This document shows, piece by piece, positions 5,902 through 16,531 of a DNA stretch of 20,037 nt. Position 1 is the first letter of the stretch. Every line of letters starts with the position of its first letter. The notes below the pieces were generated by a model, which was given only the letters and a program-made list of their open reading frames with translations, ran no database searches and was not told the origin of the DNA. Source of the DNA: a virus. The position numbers were made by a program, and so were the translations under genes. Location of the stretch: IMG/VR virus record IMGVR_UViG_3300042891_000584, positions 1-20,037 of that record; one strand, written 5' to 3'.

Positions 5902-6321
5902 TTATTTTAGTTTCAGATTTCTTTCTTTTACTAAGTAGTCACGTCTGTCTTTTTTTTCGTGAAAGTAGGTATGGCACTCTCTACAAAGTAAGATTAAATT
6001 GTTGAGTGCGTGTTTATTAGGATTATTAGGCATTTCCGAACGGAAAATGATATGGTGACAGTCTGGATAACATTTTTTACTGCACCGTTCACAGTAGTTA
6101 AATCCAGCGTCATTAATTTGCCTTTCTTTTAGAATAGATTTATTCTCTAGATATTCTTTTAAGTCTTTTGGAATATTTACTTTTTTAAATACTTGTAATT
6201 TTGTTTTCTTTTTTGGAGTATTTTTAAAGGTGCATCCAGCAGAGCAGTATTTTTGTAAACTGTTCCGCTGGATAAATTCCTCTTCGCACTCTTTACATTT
6301 TTTTTTCTTTTGTTTTTTCAT
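5902..6321 (-). CDS. HNH endonuclease with N-terminal zinc ribbon (NinG/packaging-HNH type)
   Basis: Small DNA endonuclease of 139 aa. Residues 1-30 hold a zinc-binding cluster (CKECEEEF...YCSAGC). Two further CxxC pairs flank the catalytic part (CERCSKKC; LLCRECH). The HNH core reads DCHHIIFRSEMP, then NKHALNNLILLC, ending RECHTYFH, with the His-Asn-His residues in order. HNH proteins next to terminase genes often assist packaging-site cleavage, and NinG-like proteins with a similar N-terminal ribbon act in phage recombination. Location favours the packaging role, but this is inference. A lysine-rich start (KKQKKKKCK) could aid DNA binding. Confidence 0.87.
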   Translation of the reverse strand: MKKQKKKKCKECEEEFIQRNSLQKYCSAGCTFKNTPKKKTKLQVFKKVNIPKDLKEYLENKSILKERQINDAGFNYCERCSKKCYPDCHHIIFRSEMPNNPNKHALNNLILLCRECHTYFHEKKDRRDYLVKERNLKLK

Positions 6322-6460
6322 TTATGTAAGTATTTGAGTGCTATTTTTTTAGTTTTGTTTAGTTAGTTAATATTTCCCCGATTCCGCAATTGGAAACTGC
6401 GGATAACAGTCAATAGTAGCAATTCATAAGAATGAACTGACTACTATTTTAGTGTTATTA
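6322..6460 (-). terminator. Intergenic double hairpin, possible weak terminator or processing site
   Basis: This 139-nt gap after the lipoprotein gene contains no ORF and two inverted repeats. The first pairs AATAGTAG (6412-6419) with CTACTATT (6441-6448). Its interior also pairs TTCAT (6423-6427) with ATGAA (6432-6436), giving a long interrupted stem. The second pairs TCCGCA (6383-6388) with TGCGGA (6398-6403) around a 9-nt loop. Neither is followed by a clear T-run on the minus strand, so Rho-independent termination is doubtful. mRNA processing or attenuation between the early and packaging genes is equally possible. Confidence 0.4.
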
Positions 6461-13177: not shown

Positions 13178-13355
13178 TTTTTTTAAATTTTAGTTTGTTT
13201 ATAATACCTTAATATAATAAAGGGAAAAAGTTTAAAATCAATTTAAACCCTTTTAAAGCCACTAGACCCCCAGACCAGCTAAATAGCCTATCTGGGAGGT
13301 CAAAAGTGTCTGAGAGTGGCTAAAAGTGGCTAAATTGACCCCATTCTATAGGTTT
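13178..13355. other. Repeat-rich non-coding gap: candidate origin or operator region
   Basis: No ORF is supported here. On the plus strand I see: GTTTAAA/TTTAAAC, a perfect 7-bp inverted repeat (13230-13236 with 13242-13248); GACCCCCAGA/TCTGGGAGGTC, a 10-bp stem with one bulge (13265-13274 with 13291-13301); a 10-bp direct repeat AGTGGCTAAA at 13315-13324 and 13325-13334, with a degenerate third copy at 13305-13314; and TAGGTT/AACCTA (13349-13354 with 13358-13363) reaching into the stop codon of the DUF932 gene. An inverted partner AGCCACT occurs at 13257-13263. The AT-rich end and helix-turn spacing of the direct repeats recall iterons or operators. Confidence 0.5.
13315..13334. repeat. Tandem 10-bp repeat (two perfect copies, one degenerate before them)
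   Basis: AGTGGCTAAA is repeated exactly twice with a period of one DNA helical turn, and 13305-13314 (AGTGTCTGAG) is a weak third copy. Spacing by 10 bp puts all copies on the same face of the helix, as in protein-binding iterons. Confidence 0.7.
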
Positions 13356-14446: not shown

Positions 14447-14485
14447 TTTAGTTTATTTATTTTTTAGTTTATGCGTATGCGTTTA
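14447..14485 (-). repeat. Intergenic repeat copy 1
   Basis: On the minus strand this holds ACGCATACGCA (14482-14472) followed by TAAACTAAAAAATAAATAAACTAAAATG. It follows the stop of the 99-aa gene and leads into the ATG of the 50-aa gene. Copies 2 and 3 have the same layout. Confidence 0.75.
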
Positions 14486-14785: not shown

Positions 14786-14836
14786 AATTTATTTTTTTTA
14801 GGTTATTTATTTTTTTTAGTTTGGGGTGCGTATGCG
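14786..14836 (-). repeat. Intergenic repeat copy 2
   Basis: The minus strand holds ACGCATACGCA (14837-14827), which shares its first base with the stop codon of the 78-aa gene, then CCCCAAACTAAAAAAAATAAAT and a second AAAAAAAATAAATTATG. It is the same architecture as copies 1 and 3, with a small CCC insertion. Confidence 0.75.
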
Positions 14837-15073
14837 TTAAAACTCTACAAAGGCTTCCAACTCTTCAGAGGTCATAATTTCTTCCATAGAAGTTAAAGTG
14901 TCCACATCGGACACGCACTCTACGTCTACACCGTCTTCAAGGTCATCGTAAGTGGCATTAACGTTTTTTGAACCCTCTACACAATACCAAGAGAGTCCAT
15001 TTCTTTTTCTGTAAATAAAAACTATACAAGGTGTCATCTGACTACCATAAGTACCATTGATTTCGTAATTCAT
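14837..15073 (-). CDS. Small acidic hypothetical early protein
   Basis: The 78-aa product starts MNYEINGTYGSQMTPCIVFIYRKRNGLSWYCVEGS, a strand-rich module with a W and two Cys. It ends in a strongly acidic half (DDLEDGVDVECVSDVDTLTSMEE). Proteins with the same 'EINGTYGS...WYCVEGS' start occur in other Bacteroidota phages in my memory, with no known role. The acidic tail could mimic DNA and inhibit a host DNA-binding protein, but this is speculation. It is flanked on both sides by the intergenic repeat. Confidence 0.68.
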   Translation of the reverse strand: MNYEINGTYGSQMTPCIVFIYRKRNGLSWYCVEGSKNVNATYDDLEDGVDVECVSDVDTLTSMEEIMTSEELEAFVEF

Positions 15074-15131
15074 AATTTATTTTTTTTAGTTTATTTATTT
15101 TTTAGTTTGTGCGTATGCGTTTATTTATTTT
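15074..15131 (-). repeat. Intergenic repeat copy 3
   Basis: The minus strand holds ACGCATACGCA (15120-15110), then CAAACTAAAAAATAAATAAACTAAAAAAAATAAATTATG, leading into the 78-aa gene. It is the best-preserved copy and lies directly after the stop of the 80-aa gene. Confidence 0.75.
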
Positions 15132-15374
15132 TTACATTTTTATGTTTACACCAAAAGGTAATTGATAAAAACTTTTTTGCTCTTTAGAAATGTAGTCAAC
15201 TTCTAAATTAAATTTTTTAGCTACCCAGCTAATTTGCTGACTTGTGGCTCTCGAATACTTTCCGTTTACAATAAGTTTATTAAAAATATTCTCTGCTACC
15301 AATGTAGTATAAGAATATAAATTAAAACCATTTTCAGTGCGTTCAATGTGAACATTGTTTTTTAACTTTTCCAT
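15132..15374 (-). CDS. First early gene, hypothetical protein
   Basis: The 80-aa product is the first ORF after the 740-bp non-coding region. It has a strand-helix pattern (VHIERTENGFNLYSYTTLVAENIFNKLIVNG, then SRATSQQISWVAKKFNLEVDYI) and ends YQLPFGVNIKM. I recognise no domain. Its leader is the A-rich TTAAAAAACAAAGTTATG. Being first downstream of a likely promoter and structured RNA, it is probably expressed very early. The function is unknown. Confidence 0.65.
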   Translation of the reverse strand: MEKLKNNVHIERTENGFNLYSYTTLVAENIFNKLIVNGKYSRATSQQISWVAKKFNLEVDYISKEQKSFYQLPFGVNIKM

Positions 15375-15412
15375 AACTTTGTTTTTTAATTGTTTATTTG
15401 ATTTTTATTGTT

Positions 15413-15650
15413 AGCACTAATGGAGGGAATCGAACCCTCGGGATATTTTATTTATCCCCCGCCAGTTCATTAATGTTTACTTAGCCACTCGGTATCTAAG
15501 TATAATTTTAACCCTTCTGCATCCCTTTACTTTTGCTATGCCTAGCAATTGGCTTCGTGCCTATTTTTATTTCCCCTATCGGCTTTCTTCTAGTGAAGTG
15601 GCTACTCCTTTTTCTTCCCATCTACTTCCCAGCAGTAAGGATGGAGTGCT
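15413..15650 (-). ncRNA. Candidate structured non-coding RNA with tRNA-like T-arm
   Basis: On the minus strand the segment can be closed by AGCACT/AGTGCT (15650-15645 with 15418-15413). Inside are: a long-range helix joining CATCCTTAC (15643-15635) with GTAAAGGGATG (15530-15520, 2-nt bulge); a TTGCTA/TAGCAA tetraloop hairpin (15548-15533); a TACTTAG/CTAAGTA hairpin (about 15502-15480); GGGATA/TATCCC (15458-15440); and GAGGG-TTCGATT-CCCTC (15439-15423), a perfect T-arm. It is not a canonical tRNA because no matching D-arm, anticodon arm or 7-bp acceptor fits. A tmRNA-like, tRNA-derived or large ornate phage RNA is possible. The pairings were found by hand and not tested for covariation. Confidence 0.45.
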
Positions 15651-15822
15651 TATGATATCCGACCATCTAAATAAAAAATCTTGGTATTGGTATTAAGGTA
15701 TTTATCGGTAGTTTAATTAGTCCGTGAGCGTAGAGTGAGGAAGTATTTAGAGATACATTACTAAATTTTAACTGTGCGTTACTCTTATTCACCCCCCACT
15801 CACGCATTGTGATAATGGAGGG
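15418..15822. repeat. 10-bp direct repeat framing the structured region
   Basis: TAATGGAGGG occurs at 15418-15427 and 15813-15822, 395 bp apart in the same orientation. The first copy overlaps the T-arm 3' side. It could be a target-site duplication, a duplicated RNA element or chance. Confidence 0.45.
15728..15805 (-). other. Large hairpin upstream of the T-arm RNA
   Basis: GCGTGAGTGGGG (15805-15794, minus strand) pairs with CCTCACTCTACGC (15740-15728): 12 bp with one bulge and one G-T. The loop region includes a smaller TTTAG/CTAAA stem. The arms are GC-rich while the loop is AT-rich. It may be part of the downstream RNA or a separate processing or regulatory element. Confidence 0.5.
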
Positions 15823-15882
15823 GTTAAACACGTAGACCATTCAAAGAACTGACCCAAAGTAAAGGAGTATTTTTTAAACTAC

Positions 15883-15913
15883 CAAATATATTTTTACTTT
15901 GAGTCCAAAAGTA
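15883..15913 (-). promoter_or_regulatory. Candidate Bacteroidota-type promoter boxes
   Basis: Two matches to the -7 consensus TAnnTTTG lie on the minus strand: TACTTTTG (15913-15906) and TATATTTG (15890-15883). The first also supplies a TTTG 15 nt upstream of the second, a little closer than usual for the -33 box. They point toward the structured RNA and early genes. Confidence 0.35.
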
Positions 15914-15975
15914 TTTTTATCTAGATTGATTTTCAGTTAGTTAGGGGGTAAAATATTTTTTTGTGGTGACTGGTG

Positions 15976-15993
15976 ACCTAAATCGATTTAGGT
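15976..15993. promoter_or_regulatory. 18-bp perfect palindrome (operator-like)
   Basis: ACCTAAATCGATTTAGGT reads the same on both strands with no spacer. It is followed on the low-coordinate side by a GGTGAC direct repeat (15965-15970 and 15972-15977). A symmetric site just upstream of the candidate promoter boxes is where a dimeric regulator would bind. Confidence 0.55.
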
Positions 15994-16114
15994 TGTAACT
16001 TGCTGATAATTAAGGGTATTGTTTTTGTCGGGGTTTTGGGGGTTTTTGTGTACAGGTATTGCACTCCTTAAAAAATTTGACACAAAAAAAGGTAGTAAAA
16101 AAAGCTAGTTTAAA

Positions 16115-16531
16115 CTAAAATAAAATAAAATAAATAGTAGTACCTAAGAAAAAGGTAGTGCCTATAAATTTTAATACCTTTTGTTTTTTTATTTCTTTTT
16201 CTTTTTCTTTAATCAAATTTTCTTTTTCTTTGATTAACGCATCACGCATACCTAACTGAAATTCTTTTTGCTCTTCTACCAAAACATAATTTATAATTTG
16301 CTTATCTTTGGAAGTTATCACAGTATTGAGGTATTCAATTTGTTTTTGTTGTATTTTATAAATTGTGTCCAATTGCTCTGCTTTTAAAATTTGTATAGTA
16401 ATTTTTTCCATTTCAGAATCATTATAACAACTAAGAGTATCACCTTCGTATATTAAGACTTGTCCGTAAGATTGAATCTTTGCACCAGATAGTAGCAGAA
16501 GTAACAGTGTTAATTTTGTCCTTGTAAACAT
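16115..16531 (-). CDS. Secreted/membrane coiled-coil protein, spanin-like partner
   Basis: The 138-aa product has a hydrophobic N-terminal signal (TRTKLTLLLLLLSGAKI) with likely cleavage near SYG-Q. A long charged coiled coil runs from about 55 to 112, including the repeated LIKEKENLIKEKEKEI. A C-terminal TM segment follows (FIGTTFFLGTTIYFILF). Proteins with this 'QVLIYEGDTLSCY' start and TM end recur in lysis cassettes of Bacteroidota phages, without a proven function. The first 92 nt overlap the 3' end of the upstream spanin-like gene in another frame, the layout of overlapped Rz/Rz1 pairs. There is no lipobox, so it is not a classical Rz1. Confidence 0.62.
   Translation of the reverse strand: MFTRTKLTLLLLLLSGAKIQSYGQVLIYEGDTLSCYNDSEMEKITIQILKAEQLDTIYKIQQKQIEYLNTVITSKDKQIINYVLVEEQKEFQLGMRDALIKEKENLIKEKEKEIKKQKVLKFIGTTFFLGTTIYFILF

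Follow-up and report, generated by a model that had tools for sequence, protein, structure and literature searches.

A serine-type tRNA-like segment in a gene-free gap of a phage genome, possibly the relic of a tRNA gene

What, if anything, is encoded in the 740-base gap between the lysis-side and early genes of this phage? The record is linear, and its whole length of 20,037 bases (here called the window) was analyzed. All of its likely genes lie on the minus strand, in the order tail-side protein and endolysin, early genes and DnaB helicase, and then TerL, portal, protease, and capsid. Because TerL is 47% (46.9%) identical to that of Flavobacterium phage 1/32, its best TerL relative among phages, and 41.5% identical to that of Flavobacterium phage tant8-1, the host, judged from sequence, is probably a member of the Bacteroidota. 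A first-pass annotation proposed that about 400 nt of the gap form an undescribed noncoding RNA with a perfect tRNA-like T-arm. Its premise that the gap holds no real protein gene was borne out: the open reading frames are short and without a family match, and, scored by the phage's own codon usage, most of the gap looks noncoding in each of the six frames. The tRNA-like segment lies at the early-gene end of the gap (Table 1).

Other noncoding features of the window were noted in passing. The early genes are preceded by a leader repeat (AACGCATACGCNNAAACTAAAAAATAAATAA) on the minus strand at 14453-14483 and 15091-15121, with a partial copy near 14808-14838; the two exact copies compare with none expected by chance, and the repeat may be an operator, or else a promoter or ribosome-binding module specific to the phage. 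The gene-free minus-strand gap at 13178-13355 contains several inverted repeats and has no Rfam match, and the 200-nt window at 13201 folds strongly (z about -4.2). The gap at 6322-6460, also gene-free on the minus strand, contains hairpins and adjoins a gene for an HNH endonuclease; part of it falls within the 200-nt window at 6201, which has a folding z of about -5.3.

Table 1. Features of the gap and of the tRNA-like segment, in window coordinates
Feature	Coordinates	Strand	Basis
Last lysis-side gene (stop at 16115)	16115-16531	minus	One border of the 740-base gap
Gene-free stretch, 740 bases	15375-16114	minus	Open reading frame list; codon-usage scan
First early gene (start at 15374)	15132-15374	minus	Other border of the 740-base gap
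GC-rich noncoding island	15411-15660	minus	40-43% GC; top 0.05-0.1% of windows
Long-range helix of the first-pass annotation, CATCCTTACT with AGTAAAGGGATG	15520-15643	minus	Helix search
88-nt segment with complete tRNA-Ser layout; degenerate 5′ acceptor strand, no anticodon stem	15414-15501	minus	Full-length alignment to six tRNA-Ser genes of Bacteroidota
Class II-type D-loop sequence CCGAGTGGCTAAG	15480-15492	minus	Pattern CNGAGTGGYNNAA, one mismatch
61-nt unit with acceptor AUUAAUG/CAUUAGU, variable-arm hairpin, and T-arm, lacking the D and anticodon arms	15414-15474	minus	Covariance model
Long variable-arm-like hairpin GGGATA-AATAAAA-TATCCC	15441-15459	minus	Covariance model; folding
T-arm GAGGG-TTCGATT-CCCTC	15423-15439	minus	Rfam; tRNA-Ser covariance model; pattern search
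3′ acceptor strand CATTAGT, G73-like G, C (then TA, not CCA)	15414-15422	minus	Alignment

The T-arm is exact, as had been claimed. A 5-bp stem encloses a 7-nt loop of the TTCRANN form that characterizes the T-arm of the Rfam tRNA family (RF00005), and the core, GGTTCGANTCC, has its sole exact match in the window at this position. Together with the variable-arm-like hairpin and the CATTAGT-G-C end, it is arranged like the 3′ half of a class II tRNA, and a G73 followed by C is also the arrangement in the aligned Bacteroidota tRNA-Ser genes. Rfam 15 (4,227 families) was searched to an E value of 5 on the window and of 10 on the segment, and no family threshold was reached, the tmRNA, GOLLD, ROOL, HEARO, and tRNA models included; the best match of the tRNA/tmRNA clan scored 16.4 bits, below the tRNA cut-off of 29. 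The idea of a class II tRNA arose because of two weak matches, one to the tmRNA T-arm and the other, at 26.1 bits on the opposite strand, to RF04351, which spans the variable-arm-like hairpin. RF04351 is a plastid element that, once reverse complemented, corresponds to a tRNA-Ser-like variable arm with its T-arm.

A covariance model was built from six aligned tRNA-Ser genes of four Bacteroidota genomes. Its best match in the window is the 61-nt unit, 15474-15414 on the minus strand, at 29.6 bits and an E value of 8.6e-6, which is rough because the calibration was short; the next match scores 6.6 bits. The same model scores most intact tRNAs of other kinds at 28 to 61 bits, and its match here passes over both the D arm and the anticodon arm. 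Folding of the 66-nt segment 15476-15411 gives the 61-nt unit with the acceptor helix lengthened to 8 bp (z of -2.4). End-to-end alignment with the six genes yields a second reading, 15501-15414, whose 88 nt equal the total length of Bacteroidota tRNA-Ser. In this reading T8, the D-loop CCGAGTGGCTAA, an AACTGxCG stretch after the anticodon, the long variable arm, C48, the T-arm (with GAGGGTTCGATTCCCTC, as in Bacteroidota tRNA-Ser), G73, and C74 all fall in register, the Ser-type D-loop being at the right distance. The D-loop pattern, with one mismatch, occurs 3 times in the window versus about 1.1 times expected by chance, and the 5′ half alone is weakly tRNA-like, its similarity being equalled at 1.4% of randomly chosen places and in 5% of shuffles (p of 0.014 and 0.05). 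We hold with good confidence that the 3′ half is tRNA-like, and the 5′ half is probably so.

The segment also departs from Bacteroidota tRNA-Ser. No pairing of the expected kind (5 bp around a 7-nt loop) was found around the place of the anticodon arm, the D-stem is poor, and the acceptor stem, which is paired in the armless 61-nt reading, forms 4 of its 7 pairs in the 88-nt reading. ARAGORN found no tRNA with default settings; at a relaxed threshold, it reported a tRNA at 15501-15414 but could read no anticodon and gave the kind as unknown. A working tRNA was ruled out because the acceptor and anticodon stems fail to pair in the 88-nt reading. The suggestion of a tRNA-derived RNA, made alongside others, is supported by the match of the variable arm, T-arm, and 3′ end to the tRNA-Ser model.

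We favor, with moderate confidence, the explanation that the segment is a phage serine-type tRNA gene that has decayed or been truncated or internally shortened. Under this explanation, 15501-15414 would be the remnant of a class II gene that once stood between the lysis and early genes. Its variable arm, T-arm, 3′ acceptor strand, and G73-C74 would still be recognizable, and its anticodon stem and 5′ acceptor strand would have been lost, so that the relic could not decode. If transcribed, it would form at most a leader segment of the early transcript, whose T-arm, carried on a short acceptor stem, might in principle still be open to cleavage by host RNase P or RNase Z. Broken but recognizable tRNAs have precedents in phage genomes: tRNA pseudogenes have been predicted in T4-like phages (PMC1524935), and two are annotated in Serratia phage BF. 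The BF pseudogenes sit in a tRNA cluster, whereas the segment is solitary, the 20-kb record containing no intact tRNA. Phage BF (KY630187.1) also has two unannotated T-arm hairpins, at about 235-345 and 540-650. They have acceptor-like 3′ strands (ACCCAC and ACATCC) with complements downstream (GTGGG and GGATGT), and they may be permuted or degenerate genes of the BF tRNA cluster.

Three observations weigh against a relic. The 5′ half by itself is only weakly tRNA-like, as noted above. The acceptor of the 61-nt unit is fully paired, and simple decay predicts otherwise; by our own estimate, pairing of that quality somewhere in 90 nt is an event of about 1 in 10. Finally, a pure relic leaves unexplained the strongly purine-rich GC peak just upstream. 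The higher GC content reported by the first-pass annotation is real: 15512-15661 has 44.7% GC where the window averages 31.7%, which places it among the top 0.05% of 150-nt windows, and 15415-15664 ranks in the top 0.1% of 250-nt windows. The peak of the window is the island 15411-15660, whose edges are sharp (28% GC in the flank above and 14% below), and purines make up 68% of the minus strand over 15506-15660. The GC-rich stretch of about 150 nt upstream of the tRNA-like part may represent further relics or acquired DNA.

This island, with its sharp edges and its position within a noncoding stretch, is also what speaks for a genuine phage noncoding RNA that would run from about 15652 to 15411 on the minus strand (about 240 nt), with AGCACU/AGUGCU as its closing helix and with a tRNA-like 3′ end. 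The tRNA-like domain (acceptor-like helix, extra hairpin, and T-arm) could then serve 3′ processing, stability, or the recruitment of a tRNA-binding factor. The recognition of a 3′ domain with a paired acceptor by the tRNA model is consistent with such an RNA, as is the folding of the 242-nt unit closed by AGCACT, which is somewhat better than that of shuffles (z of -1.9; 8 of 200 fold as well). We consider this RNA possible, with a probability well short of that given to the relic, and its more specific form, in which the RNA heads the early transcript and is processed or stabilized through its armless tRNA-like end, a little more doubtful still.

Folding and helix counts close to chance tell against it. 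The long-range helix described in the first-pass annotation is present as letters, CATCCTTACT at 15643-15634 facing AGTAA-AG-GGATG at 15531-15520, and so are the closing pairs AGCACT/AGTGCT and ACTAAT (15721-15716)/ATTAGT. As a set, these helices are not clearly above chance. Folding z values are -1.4 to -2.0 for 15411-15721 and 15411-15810, against a genome baseline in 200-nt windows of -0.66 (standard deviation of 1.3), and the last 90 nt alone stand out (z of about -2.4 to -2.7). Long-range helices of at least 9 bp number 3 in the segment versus 1.95 in the average tile, a number reached by 30% of tiles. When overlapping registers are counted as well, the segment has 12 versus 1.7 in shuffles, matched by 0.7% of them, but these collapse to the same 3 distinct helices, two of which are A/T only. 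Six-base-pair closings of the 3′ end number 2 versus 0.55 expected, and 12% of shuffles have as many. Nor are the helices mutually compatible, as had been proposed: the closings through AGTGCT, ATTAGT, and CATTAGT share bases on the 3′ strand, so at most one of the three can form. No consensus promoter or minus-strand terminator was found near the 240-nt segment.

A further point against a functional RNA is that no homologue was found in any collection searched. A blastn comparison of the segment with 50,697 phage records returned generic T-arm and short matches only, and exact or degenerate patterns of the segment found nothing in IMG/VR or in 84,980 prokaryote genomes. Among 395 Bacteroidota genomes there were two matches of 27 to 28 nt. 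The one at 15526-15552 fell inside a Panacea-like reading frame; the window has no Panacea match, and the two matches were attributed to chance. Relatives of the phage found through DUF932, endolysin, TerL, and DnaB were too distant for the segment to be compared, and none of 49 related loci had a tRNA-Ser-like match, the only two matches being intact tRNA-Phe genes. Given the lack of homologues in these searches and a fold that is near chance overall, the data speak neither for nor against a new RNA class. Membership among the large ornate RNAs of the GOLLD/ROOL kind is not supported. Like them, the segment is phage borne and gene free, and tRNA sequence sometimes adjoins or lies inside those RNAs; unlike them, it has no covariance-model match and no extensive structure, and it is well below the length of GOLLD, many members of which exceed 800 nt (PMC12286853).

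The resemblance to tRNA could instead be fortuitous, a T-arm-like hairpin beside another hairpin in ordinary intergenic DNA. About 40 nt supply most of the 29.6 bits, and a window should contain 0.5 copies of the T-arm core when one mismatch is tolerated. Here, however, the core is exact and its stem has five pairs, the variable arm is of class II, C48 and G73 are present, and the D-loop is in its place; with the E value given above, chance is unlikely. Somewhat less probable again is an attachment site or captured host DNA, in which a host tRNA-Ser gene would have left its 3′ end behind after integration or faulty excision. The 3′ ends of tRNA genes are common attachment sites, and the GC content of the segment exceeds that of the rest of the phage. 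Against this origin, the family matches of the window proteins scanned include no integrase, GAGGGTTCGATTCCCTCCATTAG occurs in none of the 84,980 prokaryote genomes, and an acceptor with A1-U72 that ends in CATTAGT is unlike that of the bacterial tRNA-Ser examined.

A strongly diverged phage tmRNA, another identity suggested at first, is largely refuted, and we regard it as very improbable. Bacteroidota phages do carry tmRNA (PMC8776804), with the same T-arm, and a 19-nt T-arm stretch (CGAGGGTTCGATTCCCTCC) is identical in the segment, in the tmRNAs of the calleviruses Calle_1 and phi38:1, and in the permuted tmRNA of the crAss-like phage cr50_1, all Bacteroidota phages. Real phage tmRNAs with this T-arm score 60 to 87 bits, whereas the segment reaches 16.4 bits, from the T-arm alone, against a cut-off of 47. 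Unlike the Callevirus and cr50_1 tmRNAs, it has no tmRNA 5′ domain, P2 helix, or tag reading frame: the 5′ motif of RF00023, GGxTTYGAC, is absent within 15411-15810 even with two mismatches allowed, the permuted form RF04321 gave no match, and no frame of the region reads as a tag ending in A-A and a stop. Separately, these searches revealed an unannotated tmRNA in Cellulophaga phage phi38:1 (1168-1529, 87.6 bits), across which the hypothetical protein gp041 is annotated on the opposite strand. In Cellulophaga phage Calle_1, the model match is also at 1168-1529 and the annotated tmRNA is at 1220-1579; its boundaries look shifted because start and end both lie about 50 nt downstream of the match.

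Least probable of all is a protein gene in decay. On the minus strand, the frame at 15840-15508 spans 110 codons and is interrupted solely by two TAG codons, each followed directly by ATG; both the frame and the TAG-ATG junctions are real. Its last 37 codons, however, score -25 bits, compared with a 5th percentile of -3 in frame, and searches of Pfam, PHROGs, and tblastn returned no match and no related intact protein. Recoding of TAG in this frame was rejected on codon usage and on the use of TAG as a stop, since four clear genes of the window terminate at it. Two other arrangements were discarded: a permuted gene with its 5′ half downstream (no ACTAATG lies between the segment and the early gene) and a tRNA interrupted by a group I intron (no intron family match and no second tRNA-Ser part in the window).

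As the relic of a tRNA-Ser gene, the segment would be one more case of tRNA gene loss in phages and a caution against taking a perfect T-arm by itself as the sign of a new RNA class. As part of a functional RNA, it would instead give a phage early RNA a non-decoding tRNA-like tail, and the use of host tRNA-processing enzymes by phages would become testable.
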